Positions 5,801 through 64,000 of a stretch of DNA of 64,000 nt are shown here, piece by piece (positions within the stretch are counted from its first letter, which is position 1; the number at the start of each line of letters is the position of its first letter). The stretch is from Dillenia suffruticosa (taxonomy: Eukaryota > Streptophyta > Magnoliopsida > Dilleniales > Dilleniaceae): NCBI GenBank assembly GCA_033439265.1, contig JAVTVX010000026.1, positions 9,177,001-9,241,000 on the forward strand, in the 5' to 3' direction. The position numbers and the translations under genes were made by a program. The notes beneath the pieces were generated by a model. The model was given only the letters and a program-made list of their open reading frames with translations. It did no database searches and had not been told where the DNA came from.

Positions 5801-8267
5801 ATCTTCAGATTTTGTTGGGTTGGCATCGGTGAAGATTTTGATCATCGATATTTTATAAATATTTTTCAGTTTAGCTTATAACCCTTCCCCTTTTGTTTTA
5901 TTTTATCTCAGTTTTGGCCTGGACAAAATGATATCCTGCAAGCCATGAACAACATTCACGACGCCATGTCATTGTTCATCTTTCTGTGCAAAACTGTTTT
6001 TGACATTCCTTCTGCCCAAGAGAGCAACAATGAAACCACCCTTCAAAAGAATTGCATGCCCTTTGATTTCGATGTGACAAAGTTCTGCCCATCAAAATTC
6101 AAGATCATAAATCTAGCTGCATTATTTGTTGCTGTTTTAAACACACACACAAAAGAAAAAAAAAAAAGGCCCATTGACACAAAGTCTAAAACTAACACTG
6201 GATGCACAGATTAGGCATTGATACCAATTGGCATGAAATTGCATTTCTTATGAAGAAGAATTCTTGAAAAATGAAGGAAAATGACTGGGAATAACAATTG
6301 AACAACACGAGATATTAGTTCCAACAGGCAAGACCTTTGGAGGATTTACACTGGTAGTATCAAAGTGGGGGTTGGGGAGCAGTATATGATCTCTTTCTTT
6401 TCCCTTTTTATTGTAGTTTTATTTGTGGTGGATTTCTTATAATTTTTATTTTCAAGTTCCTTTTCCTATTAAGAAGTCTTCTTTTCTTGTTAAAAAGTCA
6501 TTACCTTTCAATGTGGACTCTTTCTTCTGGTTAGCAGTGGACATTACATCCAACTGCAAGGGTTTTAAACTGGACCAGCTGGTTAGACTGTTAACCAGTC
6601 CCTATTATGGTGGAGAAGATTCCCTAGAATTGGATAGAGTCAAATACCTCATAATTGTACAAAAGGCTGAACACGCTGGTTGGACTGAACAAGGGAATTG
6701 GAGCTGGTCTAACTATCTTAACCAACATAAAAACTAGTTAAAAACTTAGCAACAAGAAGAATCCTGTCACTGACAGAAAGGAAACACAGTCAAGCCAAGC
6801 CCAAAAAAACTCATTTTTTCTCCATCTCTAGTTCTCTTAATAGTCCTAGCCAAAGCCATTGATACGTCTTCTTTTCTCTTCCTCTGAGTTTTCTCTCTCC
6901 TTTTCTTTTCCTCCTGTGTTGCTGCTTTCCTTTTCGTCTTCCTTTTTCTTCTTCAGTGATTGCTGCTGATCTTCTTTTTTTTGGTACTGCCGCTGCAGAA
7001 TTTCTGCAATTATTGCTGAAAGCAGTCTCTCTTGCACATTAACACCCATTACTGTTTGTATTTAAGGTTGAGATCGGGGACCAACGGACCGTTGGCTTAG
7101 TAGGATGTGGTGTTAGGTCCCTTAACCAAGTTCTTGAGTTCAACTCACGGCTTGAGTATGGAAAAAACTACGTTAGGAGAGTAGTCCCCTTAAATGGGCC
7201 ACTGCCAGTCCCGAATCAGATTAATCGAAGTATGGCTTTGAATACCAGTTGGTATAGTACCAAAAAAAAAATGTTGAGATCAGGGTTGTGAACTATACAG
7301 TTTTGGTTTTATTCACTCTATCATCTAATGTTAAGAAATTGGACTGACAAAATTATGAATTCCAGTTCTGATTGCTGGATAATTAGGCTTGAATGTATTT
7401 CTAGAACAATAACAAATATTTATTTATGATGTTACATCACACTAGCATCAGCAATTCTATCAGTGATTGGATCATGGTTGAACCAGTGGACTGTGAACCA
7501 GTGCCCGCTTGGTTTGAAACCTTTGTTGCTTGCTTTGATTTAGGTTTGTTCGTGGCGTTTTGGTTTCTGAACTTTTCACATTCAGTGTATGATTTGCTGG
7601 GAAACATGTGCTTTCCGACATATTGTGGATGTTATGTATTTCCTTGGTGTCTTCATGTTGTCTCCTTGAGAAATTTTCATGGTTTCCTATGTAAATTTTT
7701 TTTTTTGGGGGGGGGGGGTGATAGGTTGAAATTTTAGTTGATTTAGTGCAGAAGTTCAGTTCTGAAGTTGTTTGCCGCCTGAGGGTTGGAATTACTAATC
7801 TTGGTCATGGGCCATTTTTCTTGTCATTAATTCTTTTTAGGAAGAGGAAATCACGGAGCACACGCGATGTTTCTAAATCCATAGCAGAAATTCTTGCAAA
7901 GTGGAAAGAGTACAATGATCAGCTTGATTCCTCGGCTGAGGGTGATGGCGCTAAACCCCTGCGGAGAGTTCCAGCCAAGGGATCCAAAAAGGGATGTATG
8001 AAAGGAAAGGGAGGCCCTGAGAACTCAAGGTGCAACTACAGAGGAGTTAGACAGAGGACATGGGGTAAATGGGTTGCTGAAATTCGAGAACCAAACAAAG
8101 GAAGTAGGCTTTGGCTGGGTACCTTTGCAACTGCTATTGAAGCTGCACTTGCGTATGATGAAGCTGCAAGGGCTATGTATGGTTCATCTGCCAGATTAAA
8201 CTTTCCCAACTATAATCCGTCCAAAGGATCCTCAAAGGACTCGTTGTGTACCAACAATCCTGTGTAG
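2828..8267 (+). CDS. DREB2: DREB2-type AP2/ERF transcription factor, short form (2 exons)
   Basis: Predicted CDS is join(2828..2850, 7841..8267), 149 residues. Exon 1 encodes MSSEAVE plus two bases of an Arg codon and ends at AG|GT; exon 2 begins after TTCTTTTTAG|G, giving [18 protein letters not shown]. This reproduces the DREB2C-type N-terminus (MPSEIVDRKRKSRGTRDV in Arabidopsis, from memory), which fixes the start and both splice sites. Visible parts: basic KRKSR nuclear signal (residues 9-13), the DREB2 signature [17 protein letters not shown] (about 54-70), and an AP2 domain (about 73-130) with [17 protein letters not shown] and the DREB-specific Val14/Glu19. The family binds DRE/CRT (A/GCCGAC) elements in drought and heat responses in the nucleus. 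The protein stops about 20 residues after the AP2 domain, whereas full DREB2A/2C proteins run to about 335-340 residues with an acidic activation region. It may be a short DREB2H-like paralogue or a truncated allele. Confidence 0.85.
2851..7840 (+). other. Long DREB2 intron 1 (about 5.0 kb)
   Basis: Bounded by AG|GTCGGG and TTCTTTTTAG|G. It is T-rich and shows only short ORFs with no recognisable domain. It holds homopolymer runs (an A-tract at 4929-4965, a T/G run near 7699-7720), the SINE at 7079-7272, and two stretches near 6545-6730 and 7290-7510 rich in CCAGT/ACTGG words that may be degenerate repeat copies. No host exon could be supported inside it. An intron right after a tiny first coding exon is typical of DREB2 genes, but 5 kb is long. 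Confidence 0.75.
7067..7285 (+). mobile_element. Full-length tRNA-derived SINE in the DREB2 intron
   Basis: A 194-bp SINE (7079-7272) with box A-like TTGGCTTAGTAGG, box B-like GAGTTCAACTC, a unique 3' part and a terminal A10 run. Flanking repeats are GTTGAGATCGGG (7067-7078) and GTTGAGATCAGGG (7273-7285), one mismatch. It is the best preserved of at least six related copies in this window (360-538, 36045-36318, 37500-37640, 40505-40615 and inverted fragments near 27.3, 27.8, 28.8 and 37.2 kb). It lies in sense orientation in the intron. Confidence 0.8.
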
Positions 8268-10321: not shown

Positions 10322-13300
10322 GGACCCGAAGGCCACTCACCGGTGGGCCTACTGCCACTTTTCCTAAGAATCTCGACACCTCTCAACTCTTCCATCAAGA
10401 TGCTAACCAATCCCTGGGGAGGGTGATCCAGCACTGTGACTCCAGGCGCATCACTTAGGCTCTTCTTGGCAAGGAAATCAGCACTCATATTCATCTCACG
10501 AAAGATATGAGACACTTTGACTACTCCCAACTCAACCATCAAGTGCTTACAATCAAGACAAATAAAGTGGAGAGGATGGTCCACTTCCTCTTCACCCTCC
10601 AGCAAGTTAACCAAAGAAAGGCTATCCACTTCCACCTGCAAGTGCTATAAACCCAAGTTTTTTGCAAGCTTAAGTCCTTCCCTCAGACCCCATAACTCAG
10701 CTGTGACATGTCTGCATTGCCAATATGTATGGTGTAACCTCTCACCCAGCTACCATCGTCCCTTCTTAGGAGACCTTCCGCGCCTGCCTTTCTAGTAGCT
10801 TGAGAAACAGCTCCATCCGAATTGAGCTTGATTTTCCTTGCGTTGGGAGGAGACCATTTGACCCACAAACTTCCTCTGGTCTTAGTACTTGCATAGTCCG
10901 CAAAGGCGTTCCTCCAATCGCTACTCAACCGATGAATCTCACTATTGAGTGTCTTGATTTTTGTTCTCTATGGCAACTTTACACCTCTTCTTCCACAAAG
11001 ACTAGATGACAGCTGGGAAGGAAGGGGTGACCTTGGTTTCCATACTTTTCTTCAACCAGTTTCTCACCTGTCCTTCCCAAAACCAACAGACATCTTCACG
11101 GTTTCTCAAAGCCTCCTCCAGATGTCCCTTGTCTCTCCACAGTCATGAAGGACATGCAGGAAAGTTTCAGCATGCTGACTACACTGCGGACAGAGATCAT
11201 CCATCGTAAAGCCCCTATTCCTTCTCTCCACGTTTGTGAGACACTTCTCCAGGCTTGCTATCCATATAAAGAACTTGACTCTCTTCGGGATTCTTGCCTT
11301 CCAGATCCAATTCCATCCCTCCATGTCCTGAGAGACTGTATCGTATCTATTCTACATTAACCCATAAGCATTACTCACAAACTACCATTATTGGTTAGCA
11401 TCCAAAAGACTGAATCCTTGACTTCAATTCTCTGAGGGATCATAACTCCAGAAATCTCATCTACTTTCTCATCAATAACCCACTCTTTGAGGTCCTGAAC
11501 TTTCCAATTGCCATCCGTGTTGATGAAGTCTGCCACTTTAAAATGAGGAAGCTCTCCCGAAGGAGGAATCTACACATGATCAGATAAACATCCCTCTCCA
11601 AACCTACTTGTCCCTCCAAAAATCTATGTCCCTTCCATTCCCTACTCTTCATTTTAAACCCCCCATGATGCAACCCCAGCAATTTAGGATTCCTTGCCAA
11701 ACAACAGAACCTATAAAGGACTTTCTAGAGTTTAACAGACCGGTCCTCCTGAGATATTTGGTCCTCAGGATATTACAACAATGGGACTCCTCTCCCTTCA
11801 AAACCCTCCATCCTAATTTAGACAACATAGCTACATTCTTCTCTAGTTTTCCTCACTCCTAGACCCTCCAAACTCTTAGGGCTGCAGACCAACTCCCAAT
11901 TTTCAAGATACACTTTCATTTTCTCTTCATCGCTGCCCCCACAAAAAATCCCTGTTGATCTTGTCCAATTTGTTGCAAGTATTCCTCGATAATCAAGCCA
12001 TTTGCATGACATATATAGGGATAGCAAAATTTACTAACTGAATGAGAGTCTTCCTACCAACCGCACTGAGAACTTTAGCTTTCCAACCCTTCAACTTGCC
12101 TTGAACTTTCTCTACCAAGTGGTTATAAAAGTCCCTCTTCACTCTTTTATGGATAGTAGGCACACCCAAGTACCTTCCCAAATTCTCAAAAGGAGCAAAT
12201 CTACTAGTGACAGTTAAAGTGCTCTTGGTAGTCCAAGGAGTTTTAGGAGAGAACCAAATCCTAGACTTAGAAGAATTTATCTCTAGACCAATTTCTCTTG
12301 AGAACTCTTTTAAGTAATCAAGGATGGTACTCAGATTTAGTTGGTCCGCTTCCACAAATAGCAACAGGTCATCAGCAATAAACGGGTAGGAAACTGGAGG
12401 ACTGTCCTTGTTCACTTTAATTGATCTCCATCTCCCTTTGCTAATCCTCTCTTAGATCATATAGGCCAGTCTCTCTATAACAAAAATGAATAAATAGGGA
12501 GACAAAGGGTTTCCTTGTCTCAACCCATGACCCATTTTCGTGGAAGGGAGCACTTCTCTATTCCAAATTAAATACACTTCTTCGTAGCTAACTGAATGCG
12601 TGATCAATTTTATAAGAGCCAAATGCATATTGATATCTAGCATGACTTTACCCAGGTAGCTCCAACTCACATTATCATAGGTTTTTTTAAGATTAATTTT
12701 AAGGATCATGCCATTTTTTTTTTTTTTTTGCTCTTGGATCTACAGAGAGAGTGGATGATCTCTTGAACCACTACAATGTTCCCTACAGTACCTCTCCTCG
12801 GGAGAAAGCTGGTCTAGTGCTCTCCAATCAGATTCTGCAGCAGGGGACGAAGCCTGTGAAATAACTTTTGAGAGGATCTTGTAAGATGTATTCAGAAGAC
12901 TAATAGGTCTCATGTCATTTACTAATTTTGGATTGTCATTTTTGGGAATGAGAACCATATGAGCATCGGCTACCACAGGAAAAAAGTAGCCTTCCTTGAT
13001 GGTAGTATTGATGAACCTGTAGACTTCATCCTTAACAACCATCCAATTCTTATGGTAGAACACCGGTTGCAGCTCATCAGGGCCAGGGGCCTTGAAGCCC
13101 TGCATAGAGAAAACCGCATACTTGATTTCTTCTTCATTCGCCTCTTTACACAAATCTTCGTGAATATACCTATCCAACTTCCTAATCCTCATCATATATT
13201 TATCACTGGGATGGCTCACCTCCTTACCCTTGAAAAGCTCTAGGAAATAGCTTCTCACATGATTCTTTAGCTCTACCGATCAGTGCTCCAATTATCCCCA

Positions 13301-14425
13301 ATCATGAGAGCAACAATCATGTTGCTTTGTCTCCTAATCTTAGTTGTGATGTGGTAGAACTTTGTATTTCTATCATCCTTGGTGATCCAATTCGACCAAG
13401 ATTTTTGGAACCAATACATCTCCTTCTGGTCTAAAACTTTATTTTATTTCTTTAGCAACTCATTTTTAAGTCTCTGCAGAGGAGCTGAATGCATGTAGTT
13501 TTTAGATCTCTAGATACCTTTCAATCCAACTTCTAACTGCCTCTTCCTACAAAAAATATTCCCAAAAACCAATTTGTTCTAGGCCTTTAGTTCATCAATA
13601 GTAAGCTTAATAGCCTAGAGAAGAAAACCCTCCCTAGTCTCCCATGTCTTTTTGAAAACTGCATTGAAATCAGGATGAGAAAACCAAGCTGCCTTACACC
13701 TAAAAGGCTTACCCACTGGCTTAGGGGGAGTGGATAGTCTCGTATGGAGAATGACTGAGTTATAATCCCCATGGAGTCGGGGTAAGATAATCACTTTCAT
13801 TACATGGAAAGCTAGTTTAGCTTCTATATTCCCTAAAACTCTATATAATTTTTCCTATAGAACAACCTTACCTTCCTTCTTTCGGACCCAAGTGAATCTA
13901 GCTCCCAAAGACCTATAGTCTTGAAGGTTGTAGAGGGCCCATCTCTCCCGGAACTTGTTGCATCTCCTCCAACTTCTTCAGTAACTGTTAGTAGATTTAC
14001 TACATCCGACTATATCATTTAAGTCACCCATTAAAAACCAAGGTGCCCTTATCTCTTTTGACAGTTTGTGCATCTCACTCTAGAAGACAACCTTGTCCTG
14101 CTCACAAGGTTGAACATAAGCAAAAGTAACCCACCACTTGGAGTTACCTTCCCTGACCTCTCCATGAATCCACTAATAAGCATGATTCACTACCTGCATA
14201 TCAAGCTTACACTTGTCCCACTTAAGCCAAAGACCTCCCTTGAGACCATTAGTGTCAACCATGAACTCACCTTCAAGGCCTTGCTTTGAGAGAAATTAAG
14301 GAAACTTACTAGAACCCGCCTTCGTCTCAAGCAAGCAAATGATGTCTGGCCTTTGGGTGTGAACTAATTCACTACAAACTCTTCTGAAACTCGTGTTTCC
14401 AATGCCTCTACTATTCCAAGAAATT
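10322..14425 (-). pseudogene. LINE ORF2 remnant: endonuclease, RT, zf-RVT, RNase H
   Basis: Minus strand. The frame opens near 14425 with IISWNSRGIGN and then LLETK, typical of the APE endonuclease N-terminus, followed by GDYNSVILH (13.7-13.8 kb). The RT part shows GFKAPGPDELQPVFYH and MRPISLLNTSYKILSK (about 12.85-13.26 kb), MGHGLRQGNPLSPYLF (12.45-12.7 kb), and FIADDLLLF with both catalytic aspartates (about 12.37 kb). A zf-RVT block WKARIPKRVKFFIW ... CPQCSQHAETFLHVLHDC lies at 11.1-11.32 kb. The RNase H block KLNSDGAVSQ ... ADFLAKKSL lies at 10.4-10.9 kb. These pieces sit in different frames with stops between them, and a T-run at 12714-12729 interrupts the RT region. Not functional. Confidence 0.88.
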
Positions 14426-14456
14426 ATAATAAATGAAGAAGATAGCAAAACACAGC

Positions 14457-16173
14457 TCAATAGGCATCACGGTCCATGCCCTCCTCTCTTCTCCTGTCAT
14501 CTCTCTTCCCCTGGTGGAGCTTGGTCTCCCACACCATATTTCCCTCCCCAGCGTCGCACTCTTGCTGCTGCTTGGGCGGGATAAATGAGACCGTTTGATT
14601 TAAAAAGTCCAAGCCTAAGCTGTTCCGCCTGTCTCCTGGGTCTAAAGTGAGAATTGCAGGCCCGTTCATGCTAATCGGGCTTCTTGGGCTATACCAATCC
14701 TCCATGTCTCCAGCATCGTCTTCCGAACCTTCAAGCCACTTTAAAAGGCTTCTAGGCCCAGACATTCCCTTACTGCCTATTGATTCTAGTCTACCTCTAC
14801 TTCATTCTTTCATTTGTTTGGCCCAACGGATGGTCCAGCTGCACTTGGCCCAGACACTCTACCGACCCCATTAGTAGCTTTCCCTTCTCGAATTGTCTCC
14901 ATCTCACCCCTGAACTCTGAAGCCATTGTCTGACGCCCTCTTCTCATCCTTTGTATCTGCCTATCTATCTGATTGTATATTCTTCCTCGTAAGTACACCT
15001 CTCCTTTCTTCTTCCCTTTCCCGTGTAACCCCTCTGCAAGCTGTCCCCTCCGCTCTCTCTCCATTTTTCCCTCTGTCGACTCCCTGTCCAAAGGGATTTT
15101 GATCTCTAACATATCGTTGACTTTCCTTAAATTTGCAAATCTGTTGGTCTGACCTCTTTCCTTCCCACCATGGTCCTTTTGATTGCTATATTTGGAAAAT
15201 CTCTGCTTTCGTGTCACTAACATCTACGGTCCCAAACCCTCATCCCTACTGTCCTTTCTGGTTGTCGGAGATCCATTCAACGTTGTGCCTTCTACCCCTC
15301 CCGTGTGTTGCTTTTGAACTTTCCTACACTAATTTCCTCACAATTTTTGCTATTGTGTCCTACTCTGTCGCAGACAAAACATATTGTGTGCAAACCCTCA
15401 TACTCCATCCTTTGAATCCTGTTACGGATGCAAATCCTAGACACCAGAGGTTTACCTAAATAGATTTCAACACATATTCTAGCAAACTTACCTCTGAGGG
15501 CGTTGGCAGTGTTGTCGTCTACCGTGATAGGTTTTCCTATGGCCTTCCCAATTTCAAATAGGATTTCCTTCTCAAAGAACTCAATCGGGAGTTGCGGGAG
15601 GCGGACCCAAACTGTAGTAGAGGTAATTTTCGCTAACTGAGCTTGAAACCATAGTTTCCATTTTCTTACCGTTAAGTAATGATCATGGATCATCCATGGT
15701 CCCCCTGTCAAAGCATGGTAAAAGTCCTGCTTGAGGGCGAATTTTGCTAAGAAGAATCCCTCACCTAGATCTAGAAGTTCTATGGCCCCTTCATTCTTCC
15801 ACATTAGATTTATTTTTGTGAATATCAACCTATAACCGATCTCTTTTCCAAATAATTTAATTATCAAGGAATTCTTCCAAGGCTTCCACAATTCCCTCAA
15901 TTTTTTCTCAGATACTGTGATTATTGGCATGTTTCCTGCCGAATTTACAACCCCATCCTCTTCCAACAAAACCTCAAATTCAAAATCTGATGTTATTTCA
16001 TCCTCCATCTAAACGTTTTTACCCTCATTTGACTGACCTATTAGCATGTCCTTGAAGGACAACTTAAATCGGGTATCTTCATTGTTCAAGCTTTGTTTAA
16101 CTTTTTTATTACTTTTCATTAGTAAATCGATCTCCTCACTTATCTCATCAGGGTTGCAGAACTCTCCGTCCAT
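14457..16173 (-). pseudogene. LINE ORF1 remnant: DUF4283 plus CCHC zinc knuckle
   Basis: Minus strand. The start ATG at 16171-16173 opens MDGEFCNPDEISEEIDLL and runs through FKLSFKDML, a motif frequent in plant LINE ORF1. A TAG at 16009-16011 interrupts it, after which the same frame continues from 16008 for 238 residues: GGPWMIHDHYL and WVRLPQLPIEF (DUF4283 hallmarks), then the zinc knuckle CFVCDRVGHNSKNC. Low-complexity charged stretches follow (14810-15223 and 14457-14765), read in other frames. Family knowledge: ORF1 proteins bind LINE RNA in the ribonucleoprotein particle. The upstream start was chosen because the residues before the TAG still look like ORF1. Confidence 0.85.
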
Positions 16174-20999: not shown

Positions 21000-23900
21000 T
21001 AGTGTCCCACAATTCTAGAAGATCTAGTTATTCTCGTAGTGCCTACTCATTCAATTTCGGCCGGTATTGATCAACACGCAATGAGTAGATTCCAATTTCC
21101 ACTAGAGTAACGGCTTTGCATCTGTAAGTAAGGCTAAATGGTGTCTCCCTGGTGGCCTTGTGGAGCGCAGTCCGATAGGCCTAAAAAATACTGTGGAGTT
21201 CATCTATCCATAGGCTTTTTGCATCCTCTAGTGCATTTTTGAGTCCTTGAAGGATTGTTCGGTTGGTAAACTCAGTGTGGTCATTGGCTTGCCGATAAAT
21301 GACAAAAGTTAAGACGATGTTGTCTCACCAGCTTGTTGCAAAATTCCTAAAAATTTTTGTTATCAAACTGCTTAACGTTATCAGTGATAAGAATATGGGT
21401 TAGGCCAAATCTCGTAATGATAGATGTCCACAAGAAAATCCGTACCTTGTCAGTTGTGATTTGGGTCAATAGTTTGGTTCTATCCACTTAATGAAGTAAT
21501 CTATAGCCATGATGAGGAACTTTTGTTGTCTAGTGGTTTGTAGGAATGGTCCTAAAATGCCTATCCCCCCATTGTGTGAATAGCTATAGATTTGTGATTG
21601 GGCAAAACTCAGAAGAAGGTTGGTGTGGTATCGAGGAGAATCATCGGCTAGGTTTCGAACACCTACATGGTTGTTACATATCCCTTCATGAATTTCTCTA
21701 AGGATATAATTTCCCTCCTTTGACGTCAAGCATTTGAGGTATAGGTATGTGAAGGACTTCTTGTAGAGGGAGCCATCAATGATGGCATGATGTGCATTTT
21801 GGCGTCTAATCTTCGCTGCTTCCTACGATGAATATGATAATCGACCTCTCCATAAGAACTTTTGGATAGGGGCTTTCCAACTCAGTGTGTCGTCAGCCAT
21901 CAGAATTTGCTGTGGTTCATCAATGCTTGAATATAGGAAGCTCTCGACATTGATTGTTCAACTAGTTTCCGTCGAGTCAGAGCTAGCAAGTTTAGATAGC
22001 GTGTTAACTCTAAAATTTTCAAATCTATGAATCTGTTAGACTTTATCGAACTTGTTCATCTCGCCCCTGAGCTTGGAGAGGTACTTCACCATCATTGGCT
22101 CGTTGGTCTCGCATGTCCTTTTGATTTGTTTGACCACGAGTTTGCTATCGATAAAGACCCAAACATCTTTGGCTCCCTGTGACATTGCAATCCCCAGTTT
22201 TATCAAAATTGTTTTGTATTCGACTTGTTTATTGGTGGCTTGGAAATCGAAGTAGAGTGCATATTCCGCTTTGAAGTCATCGGGACCTATTAAGATAAGG
22301 TCATTGTCGCCTCTTAATAAATTAAAGGACCTATCTACGTGTAAGGTCCAGGATGGTGGGAAGCACTCTTTCGAATAATCGTCAATTGCTTGCTTAGCAA
22401 GACTTGGGAAGGTACATTCAAGAATGAAGTAGGCTTGTCCCTTGATTGCGAGTCTTAGTTAGTATTGAATGTTGAATTCACCAAGTTCAACACTCCATTT
22501 GATGAGCCAGCTTGAAATGTCTCTTTTCTGTAGGATCTACTTTAAGGGCTAGTTAGTTAGCACCATGATAGTGTGCTCCTAGAAATATCATCTGAGGCAC
22601 CAGATAGTTATGACAAGAGTGAATGTCAGTTTCTCTATAGGCTTATAGTTGATTTCTACTTCATGTAGTACTTTGCTAACATGGTATACCAACGTTGTAC
22701 GTCGGCATCTTGTCTTACAATTGCATAGCAAAGGGCTCGATCAAAAATAGACAGGTAAAGATAGAGTTTCTCATCGAGAATGGACAGAGAAAATAGAGGA
22801 TATGATGAGAGGTAGTCCTTGAGCTGGTCAAATGTGGCTTGACATTCTAGTATCCATACAAACTTTTGAGACTTCTTTAAATCATCAAAGAAAGGTTTGT
22901 ATTTTCCCTTCACTTTGACATGAATCGGTTCAAGGGCACAATCCGTCCCGTGAAACTTGCACCTCTTTCAGTGTTCTAGGTGACTCCATGTCTGAGATGG
23001 TTTCAATTTTCTCTAGAATGGCCTCAATTCCTTGATGGCTAATCATGAAGCCTAGGAATTTACCGAATGTAATCCTGAAGGTACACTTAGCTGGGTTTAA
23101 CTTTATGTTGTAATACTCTAATGTTTGGAATGTCTCTTCAAGTTCCGCTGCATGATTCTCTATATTGGTACTCTTGACTAACATGTCATCCACGTAGGTT
23201 TCAACGTTTCTGCTAAGCTCAGGGCTTCTACATTTTTCAAACCAAAAGGCATGATCTTATGACAGTAGCTACCAAACCTCGTAATGAAGTTGGTCTTTTC
23301 TTCGTCTTCTAGGGCCATGTATACCCAATTGTAACTGGAATACGCATCCATGAAGTTTAGAAGCTGATGGCCTAATGAATTGTGTATGAGTTCTCAATAT
23401 TGGAAAGTAGATAGTTATCCTTTGGATATGCCTTGTTGAGCTTGTGAAGTTGACACACATTCTCCAATTGTCATTTGTCTTTTTCATTATAACTATGTTT
23501 GCTAACCATGTGGGATATTTCACATCTCAGATGAAATTTGTCGCCAGAAGTTTTTGGACTTTCTTCTATATTGCTCATTGGCATTCTAATACAAAAACTG
23601 TCTTCTTTTGTTCATTGGTTTGTGATTCGAATCCATCGTCAATTTATGAACAATCACTGAATGGTAATTTCCATAAATTTTTTTAAGAAACCATGCAAAG
23701 ACTCCAGAATGTTAGCATAAATAGTTGATGATAGCATCATGAAAAGTAGTTGGCAGGGGGCTCTAATTTGGACGGTCTAACCAAGTGTATTTGTGATGGG
23801 AATTGTGATCACCTTTTCGCTCTATTCGAATTTAGCAACTTGTTTGATGTTGTCTCTGAATTCCATGGTTTCAGTCGAAAGATCATTTTTTTCTTCCTTC

Positions 23901-28300: not shown

Positions 28301-30390
28301 TTAGAAATGGGTTAGAGTCCTGGCTTGATGCTGTGACCTGTAAGGTGGCATGGAAGCAAATATCAGCAGGAAATGCAAAAAGAAAAAAAAAAAAAGGTGG
28401 GGGGCCGGGGGGAAGCCAAGAAGGTAGAGAGAAATCATCATTTCCAATGCCATTGACCACCAAGCTATTGATGTTGTGGGCCACCATTTTTATTTCACTC
28501 CTTCACATAGAGTACAGCATTGCAAATTCGGGCCATGGAGCCCGGTGTACAAATGTATTTTTTGGTTTCCAGCACCTTTTACTCGGATTAATTTTTATCA
28601 AGTTATTATCAAATCTTAATTAAGAAAAATCATTCTCAATGTTAATTTTATTACTATCAAAACTTAAATCTTGATTATTTGTGTGAGATGTTAATATTCT
28701 TCCCATAAAATCAATGAAGTATTGATAGTGTATAATTTTTTTTACGGTTTTAATAATTACGTATTTAGAGAATGAATTTTTTTCACTAATTTTACTTAAT
28801 TTTTATCCGATTAATCTAATTTAAATATTATAAACTTATTTTAAGATTAATTTTCTTAATTTTTTTTTATCACTTCTAATACTTAAATTTGAGACCTTTA
28901 TTTAAAAGAGTAACATATACGATCACTCGACCAAAGAAATTTAATGCATTTAAAAAATAAGGATTCTAATGAAACCTTTTTTATTTATGGATTTCAAAGT
29001 CAAAACTTTAATTTAATATTTTATTTTATTTCCCGTACATTTTTAAAGAGTCACCCTCTTTTCATTAACTAACCTTTAATGCTACTCCTGTTGGATTTGA
29101 TGCATCAAGTGTTGGACTTCTTGTCACCAAGCTTTTGTATTTTGCAAGTTTTCCCTGCTTTTCTTTTCGTTTCCATCTCTCATTTTATTTTTTCTGCTAT
29201 ATTAAATTAAAGAAATCAGAAAATATAAGTATAGATATTCCCCTCATCTCAAGAAAACAAGTGACCATACCACCACCACTGTTAAATATTTCAAATTTTT
29301 TTTCCTTATTTTTTTTATATAAAAAAATATAATCAAACAAAATCATATAAAAAAAAGAGAAAATATCTTCAAGAAATATAAGAATATAAATTATTCTCTT
29401 TAATTTAGTGATTTCAAATTTAAATTTTTATATAATAAAAAAAAATAAAGAGAAAAAAAATGATAAAATTCTATCGCCGTCACGGTAATGCTAAAATGAT
29501 AGAAATTCAGCGCTCCTTTACGAAGCATCTGTGAATATATTGAATTAAGTGAAACTTTTAAAGTAGAAAAGGAGTATGATAACATACAACTTATGGATCT
29601 ATTCTAATATTATCATAAATTTTACAAAAAAATTATTCATTCCAAAAATCGAACTTTATAGATGGAAATATTATTAATTGTTTTATATTTTAAAAGTTAT
29701 TTCTATTGTGATGTCCATCTAATTCTTTTGAGAAACATTTCCTAATTTTTATATGCCATATCTCCACGTGATTTCTAAAATCAACGGATAGGAAGATCCA
29801 AAAAGGAATTCACTCTTTAAATTCACTTAGATATTTGGGGATATAAATCCAGCGGGATGGAAATGAGAAATCAAAATTATATGCACAACCAAAAACCCAT
29901 AGGAAACATTTTCCGTGCTTTGTAGTTCGTACATCTTTAACATTGTCGGAAGTGCCTAATGCTCAAAATACGATGTTATATGATCCCAAAAAAAAAAAAA
30001 AAATAAAAGAAAAGAAAAAAGAAGCCGATCAAGGGTGGAAGCCAAACGAATTCCCTTTTTTTGTTATGATGTTTGAATATATGCTGGCAAAACATTCTGA
30101 ATCGTCACGCTCACTGATGGAGTTAATGACTCTTGGATCAAACAAAGTCTGCTTTTTCCTATTCTCTTTCCTTTTCTTAAAGAGCCAATACTTAGATCAC
30201 ATGGACCAACAATGCATCTTTAATGGACCCTACCCTCTTGACCAAAAATCATTTTTATCCATTCACTGTCTACACTCAACTCCAAAATTGTATTTCAGCC
30301 ACCGACTTCAATCCAATTCCCTTCTTTTCTTTCTTATTCCCTTCCCACGTTCCCTCCTTTTTCCCTTCATTTTTATAAACTAATTTAGAA
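25300..30390. other. Intergenic DNA with microsatellites and SINE remnants
   Basis: No supportable host gene. Contents: (GA)n runs at about 25434-25455 and 25546-25568; a short GC/CA/CT-rich island at about 26547-26640 with CCGCCCGCC repeats, (CA)n and (CT)n, followed by a G-box core CACGTG near 26646; and inverted fragments of the window's SINE family near 27290-27420, 27765-27900 and 28795-28950, recognisable by the GATTAATCT/ATTTAAATA and ...AATTTGAGAC words. ORFs of 134 aa (25370-25774) and 146 aa (29943-30383) are low-complexity or repeat-derived and were not accepted. Confidence 0.5.
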
Positions 30391-30526
30391 ATGCTACCTC
30401 TTTTCTTCAAGCTTTCTCTCACCTCTTCTGCTTTGCAACATTCTCATCATACTCACCGCATTCTCTCTCTAAAGATATATTCTGCATTCTGCTTCTCGTC
30501 TTCCTGCACGCACGCTTGTTTCTCCA

Positions 30527-33500
30527 ATGGAAAACAACCCACTTCAGCTTTTCTTTTACTCTGCTGTTCTAAATCTTCTTCTCTGCTTCATATTATGCGC
30601 CCCTGTTTCCGTAACAGAGCAAGCTCTGTTTTCAACAATCAAGACAGATGCAGAAGCCCTGATAAATTTCAAGAAGATGATTCAAAAAGACGCAAATGGT
30701 GTATTATCCTCTTGGTACCTAAAGAAAAATCTATGCTCATGGCAAGGCGTGTCCTGCTCGCTCGGACGAGTGACCCAGCTCGATCTCAGCGGATCAAATC
30801 TAGTAGGAACCCTGTTTTTCAATCCTCTATCTTCTGTAGAAATGTTGTCTGTTCTAAATCTCTCTGGTAATTCGTTCTACATAAACTTAACATCTCTTCT
30901 TCAACTCCCATTCGGATTGAAACAGCTTGAATTGTCTTCTTCAGGACCCACAGGTCTAGTCCCAGAAAACTTCTTCTCAGAGTATCCGAATCTTCTCTAT
31001 GCGGGTCTTTCTCATAACAATCTATCAGGCTCTTTACCTGAAAACATATTTTTGAATTCTGAAAAACTCCAAGTTGTAGACTTGTCGTACAACAACATTA
31101 CCGGTTCAATTTCAAGTCTCAGAATTGATGGTTTAAGCAATTCTTTGCTGCAAATTGATCTCTCAGGAAACCATATAGGTGATTCCATTCCTTATTCTCT
31201 CTCAAATTGCACAAACCTGAAAAGTCTCAATCTGTCTTACAATTCATTCACTGGAGAGATTCCTCAGTCATTTAACCAACTCAAAAACCTCCAGAAGTTG
31301 GATCTTTCGCACAATCAAATCACGGGTTGGATTCCATCTGGATTGGGAAGTGCTTGTAATTCACTTCTGGAGCTAAGGCTTTGTTACAATAACATTTCAG
31401 GCTCGATTCCTGATTCGCTCTCCTCATGTTCTTGGCTTCAAATACTGGATCTCTCAAACAACAACATATCTGGAGATTTTCCAGATTCAATCCTGAAAAA
31501 TCTTGCTTCTCTACAGATACTTTTGTTAAGCAATAACATCATATCTGGATCATTTCCTTCTTCTGTTTCTTCCTGTAAAAGACTGAGAATTGTGGACTTC
31601 AGCTCAAACAGGCTTTCGGGAATTATCCCACCTGATATATGCCTGGGAGCTACTGCTCTGGAAGAGCTTAGAATTCCAGACAATCTCATCACAGGTGAAA
31701 TCCCACCAGAATTATCGCAATGCTCGCAGTTAAAAACTATCGATTTTAGCCTGAATTATCTTAAAGGTTCGATACCTGCAGAATTTGGCAATCTTGAGAA
31801 CTTGGAGCAGTTCATGGCTTGGTTCAATGGCTTGGATGGGGAAATCCCACCAGAGTTGGGAAAATGCAGCAATCTAAAGGATCTGATTCTCAACAATAAT
31901 TACATAAGTGGTGAAATCCCGGTTGAGTTGTTCAACTGCACTAATCTGGAATGGATTTCATTCACAAGAAATGGCCTAACCGGCCCAATCCCACGTGAAT
32001 TCGGGCTTCTGTCAAGGCTTGCTGTTCTACAACTGGCGAATAACAGCTTGAGCGGTCAGATTCCGTGTGAATTGGAAAATTGCAGTAGTTTGATTTGGTT
32101 AGACCTCAACAGCAACAGGCTGAATGGGGAAATCCCGCCTCGACTTGGAAGGCAGCTTGGAGCAAAAGCATTGGGTGGAATTCTAACAGGAAATACTCTC
32201 GTGTTTGTCAGAAACGTTGGAAATTCATGCAGAGGAGTCGGAGGTTTGTTGGAATTCGCAGGCATTCGACCAGAAAGGCTTCAACAGATTCCCACATTGA
32301 AAAGTTGTGATTTCACCAGGTTATACTCTGGTCCTGTTCTCAGTCTTTTTACTCAGTATCAGACGGTGGAGTACCTTGATCTTTCCTACAACGAACTTCG
32401 AGGGAAAATTCCAGATGAATTTGGGGAAATGTTCGCACTACAGGTTCTGGAATTGTCGCACAATCAACTTTCTGGAGAAATTCCTTCTACACTTGGGCAG
32501 CTGAGGAACTTGGGAGTGTTCGACGCGTCACATAACAGATTGCAGGGGCAGATACCGGAGTCTTTCTCAAATCTGTCATTTTTGGTTCAGATTGATCTGT
32601 CATATAATGAGTTAACTGGACAGATCCCATCAAGAGGTCAACTTAGTACTCTCCCTGCAAGCCAGTATGCGAATAATCCTGGACTTTGTGGAGTTCCATT
32701 GCCAGAGTGTCAGAGTAGTAGCAACCAACCGGCAACAGATCAGGTTACAAATTCTGAAAGACAAGGTCATAAACCAGCTGCTGCTTCATGGGCTAATAGC
32801 ATCGTGCTAGGAATTCTAATCACCATTGCTTCTGCCTGCATTGTCATTGTGTGGGCAATTGTGTTTCGCACAAGGAGGAAGGAGGCAGAGGATGCTAAAA
32901 TGCTTAATAGCTTGCAAGCTTCTCATGCTGCTACAACTTGGAAGATTGAAAAGGAAAAAGAGCCCTTGAGTATCAATGTTGCTACTTTCCAAAGGCAGTT
33001 GAGAAAGCTTAGGTTTTCACAGCTCATTGAGGCCACCAATGGCTTTTCAGCTGCCAGTCTTATTGGGAGCGGGGGATTTGGAGAAGTTTTCAAGGCTACA
33101 TTGAAAGATGGGTCTTGTGTTGCAATCAAGAAGCTCATAAGATTGAGTTGTCAGGGTGACCGAGAATTCATGGCTGAGATGGAGACTTTAGGGAAGATCA
33201 AGCATAGGAACCTTGTTCCTCTTTTGGGCTATTGCAAGGTTGGCGAAGAGAGGCTTTTGGTTTATGAATTCATGGAATTCGGAAGCCTTGAAGAGATGCT
33301 TCATGGAAGAGGAAAAATGTGCGACAGGCGGATTCTCACATGGGAAGAAAGGAAAAAGATAGTGAGAGGTGCAGCCGAAGGACTATGTTTTCTACACTAT
33401 AACTGCATCCCACACATCATACATAGAGACATGAAATCAAGCAATGTACTGTTGGACCATGAAATGGAAGCTTGAGTCTCTGATTTTGGAATGGCCAGGC

Positions 33501-33931
33501 TCATAAGTGCTCTTGACACACATCTAAGTGTAAGCACACTTGCAGGCACACCAGGCTATGTCCCTCCAGAGTACTACCAGAGCTTCCGATGCACGGCAAG
33601 AGGAGATGTCTACTCTTTTGGTGTTGTTCTATTAGAACTTTTGACAGGTAAGCGGCCAACAGACAAAGAAGACTTTGGAGACACCAATTTGGTAGGTTGG
33701 GTGAAGATGAAAGTGAGAGAAGGGAAAGGAATGGAAGTGATCGACCCAGAGTTGCTATCAGTGACCAAGGGAACGGATAAACCTGAGGCAGAGGAGGTTA
33801 AGGAGATGGTGAGGTACCTGGAGACAACAATGCAGTGCGTCGAGGACTTCCCTTCCAAGAGGCCTACAATGTTGCAGGTTGTGGCTATGTTAAGGGGACT
33901 AATGCCTGGAAATAGTAACAATAGTGCTTGA
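30527..33931 (+). CDS. BRL2: BRL2/VH1-like LRR receptor kinase, with in-frame TGA in the kinase domain
   Basis: A single-exon frame of 1,134 codons interrupted only by TGA at 33473-33475 (codon 983). Parts: signal peptide (about 1-28), Cys-rich N-cap around CSWQGVSC, about twenty extracellular LRRs ([12 protein letters not shown] type), a BRI1-class island (about 541-605, [15 protein letters not shown]), a transmembrane helix (about 758-782), and a Ser/Thr kinase with [14 protein letters not shown] (Lys868), HRDMKSSN (Asp968), then, past the stop, [20 protein letters not shown] and [19 protein letters not shown]. Wording and length (Arabidopsis VH1/BRL2 is 1,143 aa) match BRL2, a plasma-membrane receptor of provascular cells that, unlike BRL1/BRL3, is not a proven brassinosteroid receptor. 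In homologues the stop position is Arg (EARVSDFG). A one-base change CGA to TGA would explain it. The predicted product lacks DFG, activation loop and C-lobe, so kinase activity should be lost if the stop is real. Confidence 0.93.
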
Positions 33932-34624
33932 ATTATAAGGGTATTTTCCTTGGCTTTTTTTTTTCCTTTTTTTTTTTTTAATTAATGCCTACTGTTAAAA
34001 AGAAAATGATTTTGTTCTTTATATATCTATTGTTCGGATGTTCAAAGTGTTACAGCTTGTACCTAATTTGTCTCCTGCACTAATACTATTGTGTCACATT
34101 CACTCATCTACGGTGATTACTGCCTATTAGCACAACCATCATGTAATTTTCTCGTCAAGCAAACAAGTGAATATCTTATTTCATAGACGAGAAGAAACCA
34201 TATTAGCAAGCGATCAGGTACCCAACAGTTGGAGTTTGTCTCAAGGACTATCCAAAGATTCGCCACAGACCAGTAGTTAGTCTGAAGAACATTGACTTTT
34301 TAGAACGTTGTTGTTGTTTATAATTACAACAATTCTTCTTTGGAAACACAAATTGGCTGGCTTTCTTCCAAAATATTATAAGCAAATCACATCTCATTGG
34401 AGACTTTCTGTTCAGTCTGTTCCTTGTTACCCCAAGATTTCATCCGGCATATATTCGACTTAGCACTATTATTATTATTTTTTTAACCAAATTAGACATG
34501 AACGAGGGTGACGGGTCAAGAGACCTATAAAATCATGATTCGAACACAAGGGAGAGCACCGGTATTACACATAAAGAGGCAAAAGAGACAGCTGAGACTT
34601 TGAATTTCAATTTATTCTAAAGAA

Positions 34625-35359
34625 ATGGCTTCAAAGAGTAGTCTAGTCTGGATTTGCATTTTGAGGTACCTAACCCTTGTCTCGTTAGCAGCTTCAGCGG
34701 TTGTCATGGCCGTAAATAACTTCAAACTCAGCGATGGTACCAAAATTCACTTTTACGATGTTATAGGTTATAGGTAATTCAGTTTTTTTATGCTTTTTAA
34801 TGTATACTTATATGATGTATATAATGATATATAATGAACGCAATAATTTGCAGATACGTGATTGCAACCACTATAATAGGTTTTATCTATTCAGCGTTCC
34901 AGATACCTTTAGCTACATATCATGCCATCAAAGAAAGGAGGCTGATCAGGCATGATTGTATGTCTGACTTTGATTTTTATGCTGATAAGGTACCGCATTT
35001 TTTCTTTTCCATTCACTACTTTACCTACTAATTATTGGGTACAATAGTTATACCATTTCCTGTGCATTTGGGGGGGGGGGGGGAATCAGATTATTGCGTT
35101 TCTTTTGGCCACGGGTGTTGGTGCTGGATTTGCACTCTCCTTCGAGCTTAAGAAGATTTTCAATGATTTGATCGATGGCTTTGCATCGCTAGCTGGATTT
35201 GATGAATTGGAAGTTGAGGAAGCAAAATCCAAGACTCGTAGTTTCTATGACAAGGCTTATATTTCCACAGGATTGCTCTCTCTTGGATTTCTTTGCATGG
35301 CGATGATCTCTGTGTCGACATCCGTCAACAAGACCAGCAGAAGCAAACTATTTGGATAG
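34625..35359 (+). CDS. CASPL4D1: CASP-like membrane protein, subfamily 4D (3 exons)
   Basis: Predicted CDS is join(34625..34773, 34854..34989, 35090..35359), 184 residues, with GT-AG junctions TAG|GTAATT, TTTGCAG|ATACG, AAG|GTACCG and AATCAG|ATTATT that keep the frame. The protein starts MASKSSLVWICILRYLTL and has four hydrophobic helices at about residues 10-30, 51-70, 96-116 and 151-171, with a DVIGYRYVIAT loop-to-TM2 motif and IIAFLLATGVGAGF in TM3. Length and motifs match the DUF588/CASP-like family, group 4D (CASPL4D1 of grape, from memory). Casparian-strip CASPs scaffold membrane domains and polymerise at the plasma membrane; roles of 4D members are largely unknown. Intron 2 ends in a G14 run (35070-35083), six bases before the acceptor AG. 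A broken tandem copy follows downstream. Confidence 0.88.
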
Positions 35360-56505: not shown

Positions 56506-58574
56506 TTTTTTTTTTTTTTTTTTTAAAGATGGTAGGTAAATTAAAAGACTAAAAAATAAAGAAATTACAAAAATAATATAAACGTAATAAAGATTATAAT
56601 TGATACAAAGTAGAATGATTAATACATATAAGACAAAAAAGAGAAAAGATTACATGTCCCACAACTATATGCCATCTGAGATGTTCCAAACAAAAAATGT
56701 TCATCACAGTTTGAAGGTATCTCTATTCACAATCTTTTGTGTCAATCTATTCATTAAAAACCAATAGTGAAATAGTGAAATCATTGTAAATAATAAATAA
56801 TGATTGTATTTCTTTTCTTTTCTTTTCTTTAAACCCAAAACATTTTGATAGCGTTGATATCTATATTTCTTCACAATTATTCAAAATAAAAAATTAAAAA
56901 CGGTATTTTAATATTAAATTTCAAATTAAAATAATATGTTTATTTTAAAAACAGGGATGCTCATCCGTTGTTCGACCAAATCTTTCAAATACTCAATGTG
57001 ATTAATTTTTTTATAAAACTTTGCAAAGTGAGTGAGAGGCTTAAATGTGTTAGGGGAGAAGATCTTTCAAGGGAACGATGGAGAAACTTTGATGTTGGAG
57101 CTTTCGCCGCTTTTGATTTATAATATATCATTTTCATAAACAAATTTTTAAATTCCTTCCCAATTTTTCTTTTGCATTTTTGCTCCCACCTCTTTTTCCA
57201 TTACTACATTTCTTAATTCCTCACAATTTTTTTTTTATACTTTTAATCAATACCACCATGTGTCTTTCATATGTGTGTTGAAAAAATTACTTCATTTCAG
57301 TAATTTTTACTACTTATTATTACATTTCTTGCAAACTACTTACTACATTTCCTGCAAGCGCATGCCTATGCGGATCCTTGCTATAACCTTTGTGCTGTGT
57401 TAATTATATCTATTTGATTAATTAAAAATTACGTATATTCTATATTAGATGACAATAAATTTATTAATATTATTATTTTAAATAATGTAATGATATGAAA
57501 TTAGTAATTTATATAATATAATATCATAGTTTTGAAAATTTATTGAGCAATTATTAGATAATATAGTGTTGTAATTTAAAAATATGACAATGTAATGTAA
57601 TTGTATGTAATGGTGTAATTAATTATGTTGACATAATTAATTAAGAACACTAAATCTTGTATCTATTGTATCGACAGAGACTGAGTCTCAACTTCGATCA
57701 AAATTTATAATTACAAAGCATTATCAGCAATGAATAAAAATTTAATCTCTCATATTTCCACACTCCACACAATTTCCACACACACAACTTCTACACATCA
57801 CACACATGTACCACCAACTCCAACCATATCTCAATCACTAATATTTCATATGTAATATTATTTAAAATTAGTATAGTACACTTTGATTTGCATATATTAG
57901 TTTTTCTGAAATAATTTATGAAACTTATCTTCATCCACATTAAATGCATGAGAAGTTGGTTCATCTACGATCATGCAAATGTGTGAATGATTATGTAAAT
58001 CTGTGAATGAATCATGTAACATGCGAAACATATCATGGTCAAAAAATTATCATGTAGTTGGATACATTAGATTCATATAAATTTTTATTACTCTCTCCAT
58101 GATTAACAAGTAATTGAAAACCGTGTGTGTAGTATAGGAAATCTTAATGTGTTGTATTAGATTGAAATTTGCACATGCAAATTCAAGAAATACAATCACC
58201 CATCAATATATTCATCACTTCCTTAGAATATCTGTCTATCATATTAAATACAAATCAAATCATTTGCACAAATTTGTATTGAAATAACTCATTTGCACAA
58301 ATTTGCATTGGCGCCAAAATGAGAAATCTTTTTTCTGGAGTTACTATTCAAATGTTTGTAAAAGTTAAAAGAGTAAATCTTCTAAATTAAGTACGAATTA
58401 AAATAAATTAATATTAATGTTGCTATTTTTTTTAATTTATATAAAGTTATATAATATTGATAATTACTAATTTAATATTATTACATTTTTTAAATTAATA
58501 ATATTAACAATTTAAATTAATAAATTCATATCATTATATTATTTAAATTAAGAATATTAATAATTTAAATTAAC
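56506..58574. other. AT-rich intergenic DNA
   Basis: Very AT-rich, with no ORF of interest. A CTTTT run (56812-56831), a CACACA-rich patch (57757-57810) and two ATTTGCACAAATTTG phrases (58260-58310) are the only repeats noticed. Confidence 0.5.
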
Positions 58575-59465
58575 AATATGCCACTCAAGACAGTGGTAGC
58601 ACCGCGCATGCAAGTGCGCAAGCAAGCGCTCGCGCAGGCACCCAACTCTGCCCGTGCAGTCTCCCGCGCATGCTACCGCTCGCATGCAAGTGCGCAAGAA
58701 AGTGCCCGCACGGGTGCTTGCCCCTACCTATGCAGTTGCCCACGCATGCCACCACTCACATGCACAACATATGCCCATGCGGGGCAAGCACGAGGCCATT
58801 GCGCATGCTTGCTCGGGGTAAGCGCGAATGCAATGCCCGTACATGCTCATGCGGGCGCCCGCGCTGGCAAGCATGAAGCAAGTGCCCGCGTGGGTGCCCA
58901 CCCAAGCCTATACGATCACCCACGCATGCCACCGCTCACATGCATGGCATATGTCAATGCCTGCACAGGGCAAGCGTGCATTCAAGTACCCCTATGGGTG
59001 CCTGCCCATGCCTGCAAGGGTGCCTACTCATACCATCACTCAGGCAAACGCGGGGCCATCGCGCATGCCGGCATGTGGCAAGCATGCATGCAAGCGCTCG
59101 CACAGGCACCCAACCTTGCCCGCATGAGCTACCGTATAGGTGCTAGTGTGTGCAAGCCGCATGCCCCTGCATGCGCATGGTAAGAGCCCGCACGGGGGCC
59201 CGCACGTGCCCGTGCCGGCGCTCATATAAGCCACTATGCAAGCGAGCACCTACGCAGGCTACTACTTTGGCGCACAAGACATGGCACGCATGCCTTCTGG
59301 GTGCCTGTGCACGTAGCATGGCCGCGCATGTGTGGGCGATTGGAGCATGCCGCGTGGTAAGCACGTGCTGGGCGCCCAGGCATGCATTCGCGAGCTACCG
59401 TGCGGGCGTGCTACACATGCTGGCATGCCTTACGGGTGCCTGTGCAAGCAACATGTCCGTAGACT
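58575..59465. repeat. GC-rich GCATGC/GCGC array with higher-order repeats
   Basis: An abrupt GC-rich island in AT-rich surroundings. CCCACGCATGCCACC recurs near 58739 and 58919 (about 180 bp apart), each followed by CTCACATGCA and a GCAAGC end. GCGCTCGCGCAGGCACCCAAC (58627, first 20 bases compared) recurs near 59092. GGGGCCATCGCGCATGCCGG (59050) parallels GAGGCCATTGCGCATGC (58793). Open frames of 201 and 110 aa across it are Cys/Ala/His-rich translations of the repeat and have no domain. Alternating purine-pyrimidine GCGCATGCATGC stretches could favour Z-DNA (inference). A related block starts at 63590. Confidence 0.7.
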
Positions 59466-59564
59466 CTTATTGCATTAACTAATTCTAATAACTATCAAGC
59501 AGTTACTTGCCTTTATTATAATACTCGAAAGACATGGAAAAATAAAGGAATTTATTCAGAATAA

Positions 59565-62312: not shown

Positions 62313-63589
62313 TGTTGCGTTCTCTTGATGGTGGGTATGCAACACTTGGGTTTACTTCTCACACAAAGGCTGTGAGAAGGGCAAGAGACCTTGGCTTGGC
62401 ATTAGGATGGCCAAGAGTACCTTAAATCCTTGCACGACTATGGGTCTTGGGAGGTTTGAGTGGTTGGTTCAAGTGTCTCCTTATGCAAGGTACCAAAATA
62501 CCCTTTGCACAATGCCTTTTCTTGCAGAGAAGTAGGTGGAAATAAGGAAGAAGATGAAGAAGATGGAAGAGGATTAGAACTTGCCTTGATGGGTCTTCAA
62601 GGGACAAGAGCCTATCATGCAAGGGTGATGTTACCTAAGGAATTATTATGCACCCTTAAACCCTAAACTCTTACTCACGTAGGAGAAGAAGTATGCACTC
62701 ATGTGTATGCTGCTATTGCTTGGAGAGACTAATAGCCCTTCGGCTGCACTGCATGTGCGCTACATGTGTATGCTGGTGTGCACTGCTCCTGCCTACTCGA
62801 GCAGTGGCCCTATCTCGCTACACCCTGGCCCATATTCTATTATGCACTCATCGAGCCATGGTCCTATTTCATCGAGCCAGATGCAATCTCCTTGAGCATT
62901 GGTGAGTCTTCTTGCATTTCCTTGCCTGCAGCTTCCTTAGCACTATGCCTTGGCTCATGGTGTGCTATGTTGTGGGCTGCATTGTCTTGATCATGCTAAA
63001 GCTCGTGCTGGTGCATTAAGGGTTGCATCTCTTCATGCATTAATGACTCATGGCGTAGGCTGCTAGGGATCTCTACATGCAGAGGCGTCACTTTGCTCTT
63101 GTCTTACTCAAGTATATTCGAAAACTACTCGTGACATGGTGCTATCGCATGTGCTGGTTGCTTAAGCCATGGTGACTCTTTGTATGGTACCCTTTCGAGT
63201 GGGGGCCTTCTAAATCGCTCTTTATCCTGAGCAATGGTCTTATCTACTACCTTGGACACATTTGAATGATGATTGCTCAGGGTTGCCCGAAAGGTCGTAA
63301 CCTTTGCGTGAAGGTTCACGTCATTTGGTATGGCGTGCTCGGTTGGCACTTGTCCTGCATGTTTTTGCTCGAGTGGACTAGTGCCTTCTCAAGTAATGTC
63401 TTAAGTAGTTGCTCCTTGGTATGGAGGGAAGGTGACTCTTCAGTGGTAACCTTTGGTGCATTACGAGGAATTGTGTCCAAGAGAACTTCCCTTGGAGTTG
63501 TGTCCGTGCAAGCCTCATTTGCTTCCTTTGGCGTTTGCTGAGGTGCCATGACATGAGTACTGCATGTTGCATCATGCAATGCTTCAACA
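62313..63589 (-). repeat. 5' LTR of the 59.6-63.6 kb element
   Basis: Full-length copy with TGTTG … CAACA termini, 1,277 bp. Its inner edge adjoins the primer-binding-like TTTTTTGGTGTTGTCG (minus strand); its outer edge (63589) adjoins GC-rich array sequence beginning CCATGCCACT. Confidence 0.78.
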
Positions 63590-64000
63590 CCATGCCACTG
63601 TATAGGTAGGCACCCTCACGGGTGTCTATTCATGCATGCATGGGCTACCATGTGGGCGCCTGCTCGCGCAGCATGCTTGTGCATTCGTGGGTGTCTAGAG
63701 CATGTTGCGTGGGCATGCGTGCATGCAAGCGTCAACACAGGTGCCCACCCATGCCACTGTGTAGGTAGACGGGCGCCTGCGTGCTCATGCGTGGGCTACT
63801 GCACAAATACGCGACACATGCCATACATGTATTGCAGGGGCCTGTGTCCGCTGCATGCCCGCGCTTACGAAGGCGACCGAAGCATGTTGCACGGGTGGCC
63901 GGGCGTACATGCGCGGGTTGTCACACAGGCATGCGGCACATGCCACACATGCATTGAGGGCGTTCGTGTGAGAAGCATGCCCGTGGTGCCCGAGTGTGCC
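63590..64000. repeat. GC-rich array, second block (runs off the window)
   Basis: Same character as 58575-59465: GCATGC, GGTGCCCACCCATGCCAC, GGGTGCCTG/GGGCGCCTG and GCGCGGG words, with TGCCACTGTRTAGGTAG repeated at about 63594 and 63751. Continues past the end of the window. The LTR element seems to have inserted into, or to be part of, this array. Confidence 0.65.

Follow-up and report, generated by a model that had tools for sequence, protein, structure and literature searches.

A premature stop codon between the HRD and DFG motifs of a BRL2/VH1-like receptor kinase gene in Dillenia suffruticosa

The closest precedent for the gene described here is bri1-107, an induced laboratory allele with a premature stop in the kinase of BRI1, a close paralogue of BRL2. 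This stop, at BRI1 codon 1059, removes 138 C-terminal residues and with them the last three kinase subdomains, and the passages on receptor alleles in PMC11312156 count it among the lesions that leave BRI1 inactive in vivo. The same passages call the early stops bri1-3, bri1-4, bri1-201, and tomato cu3 null, and give no outcome for bri1-114, a stop in the island domain (PMC11312156). In rice, d61-4 is described within a wheat paper as a stop placed in the kinase that results in extreme dwarfism and sterility (PMC12105372). The wheat stops themselves are severe there only when all three gene copies are hit (PMC12105372); since they also remove the membrane helix, they have little bearing on a membrane-bound fragment. 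For the receptor ERECTA, part of another paper describes a kinase-deleted form that is dominant-negative and a kinase-dead form that is partly functional (PMC5441908).

BRL2/VH1 itself (Arabidopsis At2g01950) is a receptor kinase of the BRI1 family. Arabidopsis plants that lack it senesce prematurely, show defects in vascular transport, and form cotyledon veins that are interrupted or fail to connect, as summarized from other work in a section of PMC11637768. According to a passage of PMC9570414, BRL2 does not bind brassinolide specifically and does not rescue bri1 mutants.

A BRL2/VH1-like gene interrupted at one codon

Within the window, the whole 64,000-nt stretch of Dillenia DNA analysed here, a BRL2/VH1-like gene occupies positions 30527-33931 of the forward strand (+) as a single frame of 1,134 codons, an internal TGA included, plus the normal stop. 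Translation from the start ATG at 30527 yields 982 residues, a stop, 151 further residues, and the normal stop codon TGA (33929-33931, +). The internal TGA is codon 983 (33473-33475, +) and is the sole interruption of the frame, as neither a second stop nor a frameshift is present. It falls in a stretch reading EA-stop-VSDFG (33467-33490), after the catalytic-loop HRD (residues 966-968; 33422-33430, +) and before the DFG magnesium-binding motif (33482-33490, +). The initial annotation, which had placed a single nonsense codon between these two motifs and predicted a kinase cut ahead of the DFG loop, was exact on both points, and its gene call was right. The part still encoded comprises the ectodomain, the membrane stretch, and the first half of the kinase (982 aa; 30527-33472, +), while the remainder of the kinase, with DFG, activation segment, and C-lobe, stays open and in frame 3′ of the stop (151 aa; 33476-33928, +). 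The first base of the TGA is also the last base of a HindIII site, AAGCTT (33468-33473, +), a possible genotyping marker; two further HindIII sites lie inside the frame, at 32916 and 33005.

The assignment to BRL2 is carried by the ectodomain. The gene product aligns over residues 21-739 with two solved ectodomain chains of BRI1-like 2, 9u0g_A and 9s9c_A, at 1,086 and 1,085 bits, and when the best chain of each receptor is compared, BRL2 (1,085.9 bits) scores about twice as high as BRL3 (552.7), BRL1 (550.1), or BRI1 (511.7), so that by bit score the gene is nearer to BRL2 than to any of these, in agreement with the identity first proposed for it. Pfam searches with the 982 residues before the stop recovered leucine-rich repeats, the island domain that lies between them, and the first half of the kinase. 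The brassinosteroid receptor island domain itself (PF20141, E 9.6e-22) spans residues 550-608 (32174-32350, +). A hydrophobic stretch at residues 759-780 (32801-32866, +) is, by its composition and place, a putative single membrane helix. Both halves of the kinase match Pkinase, with the TGA at codon 983 between them, and no complete kinase lies in one frame. Thus, the gene resembles Arabidopsis BRL2/VH1 in its matching ectodomain and island domain, yet differs from it in a kinase broken ahead of DFG. Judged by its sequence, it may be called a BRL2/VH1 orthologue by descent, yet one that codes for an incomplete receptor kinase.

With X in place of the TGA, the kinase can be aligned to that of BRI1 over residues 1-305 of 309 (434.5 bits), with small gaps elsewhere and none at the site, and in this one alignment X lies opposite R in the E-A-R-V-S-D-F-G of chain 5lpz_A. 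Residues 820-982, before the stop, match the BRI1 kinase, and after it 147 of the 151 residues align with its second half (E 9.5e-52); with matches to BRL2 or BRI1 on both sides of the stop, a chance match is not an issue. Identity to BRI1 is 113/157 for the kinase residues before the stop and 89/147 for those aligned after it. The lower overall value after the stop comes from the distal part, as 66 of the first 75 residues are identical and only 23 of the 72 beyond. The proposal that homologues carry Arg at this codon therefore holds for the BRI1 kinase 5lpz_A. For BRL2 orthologues themselves it is an assumption, as no BRL2 kinase chain was among the best 60 of 226 and the best 60 of 2,562 matches listed.

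Searches for relatives were made at several scales. In the 64,000-nt window, tblastn with both halves (E 0.01) returned only the gene itself and no second BRL2 copy. A collection of viral contigs contained no match to the exact DNA pattern, and none of three stretches matching the protein pattern was confirmed. With the 157-residue first half of the kinase as query, 47 stretches in a genome contig collection matched the pattern and seven were confirmed as kinases, all bacterial by title, 26-33% identical, and uninformative for BRL2.

Other parts of the window contain a mixture of gene and repeat remnants. Just downstream of the BRL2-like gene, 34625-34774 and 35048-35356 (+) are presumably exons of a CASP-like membrane protein; the latter has no Pfam match. 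The open frame at 7725-8264 (+), which encodes an AP2 domain (PF00847) and which we take to resemble DREB2 factors, seems to have an intron before its start and to stop shortly past AP2, and may be a shortened DREB2 gene. On the reverse strand, a decayed LINE-like element (11996-16008, −) comprises, at 15295-16008, DUF4283 together with a zinc knuckle below threshold and, at 11996-12451, a reverse transcriptase also below threshold, with no Pfam match at 12743-13279. Further decayed retroelement pieces (22039-23256, −) carry RVT_1 (22933-23256) and RVT_3 (22039-22458), and the adjoining frame at 21469-21822 has no Pfam match. The overlapping open frames at 58569-59479 and 63557-64000 (+), with repetitive translations rich in Ala, His, Cys, and Pro, are probably repeat and not genes; 58569-59180 (+) has no Pfam match.

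Age and origin of the premature stop

A single disabling change, flanked on either side by translation in the BRL2/BRI1 frame, rules out an old or decayed pseudogene. As the frame has no further stop and no frameshift, the TGA is of recent date, still segregating as a polymorphism, or an error of sequencing; this supports the three options originally put forward. A Poisson estimate bounds the age of the loss: with 3.4% of substitutions creating a stop (transition-weighted) and no selection assumed following the loss, neutral divergence since then is below 1.05%, 0.66%, or 0.38% for assumed indel:substitution ratios of 0.05, 0.1, and 0.2, respectively (95% Poisson bound).

The stop would have arisen in a single step, most simply by a C-to-T change at the CpG of an Arg codon. 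Observed/expected CpG is 0.41 in the gene, 0.31 in the kinase, and 0.63 in the window, and the corresponding TpG/CpA values are 1.22, 1.29, and 1.11. Such depletion is as expected where CpG has long been methylated and C has changed to T, the common route from Arg CGA to TGA, and in human data CGA-to-TGA change is reported, in the relevant passage of PMC10471768, to exceed the rate of other codons by an order of magnitude. The depletion is a record of past mutation pressure in the gene and says nothing about the origin of the T at 33473; an AGA codon could also have given rise to TGA, by transversion. HindIII star activity was considered as a source of the T and rejected in thought, because cutting and religation do not alter the outer base of the site.

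The same observations bear on an artefactual origin, in which the plant would carry the Arg codon and an ordinary functional BRL2 and the T would stem from a consensus or base-call error in sequencing or polishing, possibly favoured by a methylated CpG. A lone stop in 1,134 codons that are otherwise open, followed by conserved kinase motifs, would be expected from such an error, and a gene with no further defect is as compatible with an error as with a real allele. Nevertheless, isolated substitutions are generally rarer than indels among modern assembly errors, and a scan for A and T runs of at least 9 nt across 30001-35000 found these only at 33955 and 33967, beyond the gene. We consider an error a possible, though doubtful, source of the T. 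In all, we judge it likely that the allele is real, and the reading we lean towards, with somewhat less assurance, is a real nonsense allele, recent and probably polymorphic, that acts as a loss of function in an otherwise ordinary orthologue of BRL2/VH1.

Expected effect on transcript and receptor

If real, the TGA allele would work as a loss of function, at the level of its mRNA, its protein, or both. The 456 nt that begin with the TGA and run up to the normal stop become 3′UTR, on top of the native one. Plant mRNAs are subject to decay when introns lie >50 nt after the stop and also when their 3′UTRs are long, and the passages of PMC3711448 describe the long-3′UTR route as needing neither introns nor the core exon junction complex proteins that were tested. 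The earlier view that a single-exon structure makes decay less certain is thus half right: it applies to the intron route, but because plants also decay mRNAs with long 3′UTRs, the lack of introns protects this mRNA less than was implied. With 456 nt added to the 3′UTR, decay is plausible without introns, and the transcript would be exposed to it. Any protein made would consist of the ectodomain, the membrane stretch, and a portion of the kinase that reaches no further than the catalytic loop. A kinase that lacks DFG, the activation segment, and the remaining C-lobe cannot be active, and for want of these parts the truncated product would not phosphorylate. Restart of translation after the stop was rejected as a rescue, as the next in-frame ATG, at 33491, is already past DFG and could give at most a C-lobe fragment.

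Two departures from this loss-of-function reading were weighed on the transcript and the protein. The stop might be tolerated through recoding or splicing, either by read-through or by an exitron that removes the TGA. As many as 300 GT..AG pairs of 60-900 nt, each a multiple of three, span the stop within 33001-33920, a count that has no weight of its own because it comes without a shuffled control. The ten pairs with the highest combined scores have donors that agree with the consensus at no more than five of eight positions, so that rescue by splicing was set aside with weak candidates only among these ten, and by position any intron of at least 60 nt over the stop would remove HRD or DFG. 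The TGA is followed by GTCTCT, which is unlike the usual read-through contexts. Tolerance by either means seems to us very improbable.

The truncated protein might instead escape mRNA decay, reach the membrane, and titrate ligand or co-receptors from intact BRL2 as a dominant-negative receptor. The intact ectodomain and hydrophobic stretch would allow this, and ERECTA without its cytoplasmic domain acts in this way in the part of PMC5441908 that describes it. The Dillenia product is comparable in being a receptor without a working kinase; it would differ in keeping half of the kinase where the whole cytoplasmic domain of ERECTA is gone, and such a half kinase is not a clean deletion and could misfold. 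The 456 nt added to the 3′UTR also speak against it, long 3′UTRs being a trigger of mRNA decay in plants (PMC3711448), and so does bri1-107, which is cut inside the kinase, though later than the Dillenia product, whose cut lies before DFG, and which is grouped with activity-abolishing lesions in passages silent on dominance (PMC11312156). Accordingly, the dominant-negative co-receptor action suggested by the initial annotation is possible and gained no specific support, and we regard it as unlikely. More far-fetched still is a TGA allele that is common or fixed and is kept since the kinase-less BRL2 ectodomain serves as a natural membrane decoy tuning vein patterning. Given the nonsense alleles of BRI1 and rice and the ERECTA precedents, plain loss of function is predicted as the most likely outcome, with dominant-negative action possible but minor.

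Significance for BRL2/VH1 in Dillenia

Carriers of a loss-of-function allele would rely on a second allele or copy, or would show defects like those of Arabidopsis vh1. As BRL2 neither binds brassinolide specifically nor rescues bri1, its loss would be expected to be milder than the bri1 dwarf, and such an allele could remain in a population. Loss-of-function variants are common in natural Arabidopsis: passages of a 2026 study count 91,751, of which premature stops make up 24.98% (PMC13089410). On the other hand, the same study finds 10,999 genes without a loss-of-function allele across 1,113 accessions, of which BRL2 may or may not be one, and the string "BRL" does not occur in its main text (PMC13089410).

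The phenomenon looks like one of a known and common kind, an ordinary variant or a single base-call error, and not a new type of receptor; whether real or an error, it leaves knowledge of the receptor family unchanged. If the T is an error, the site needs a flag, lest BRL2 be annotated as lost or as two fragments in Dillenia. If the allele is real, it would be a natural BRL2 knock-out outside Arabidopsis, usable for the study of vein and senescence traits and already provided with a HindIII marker.
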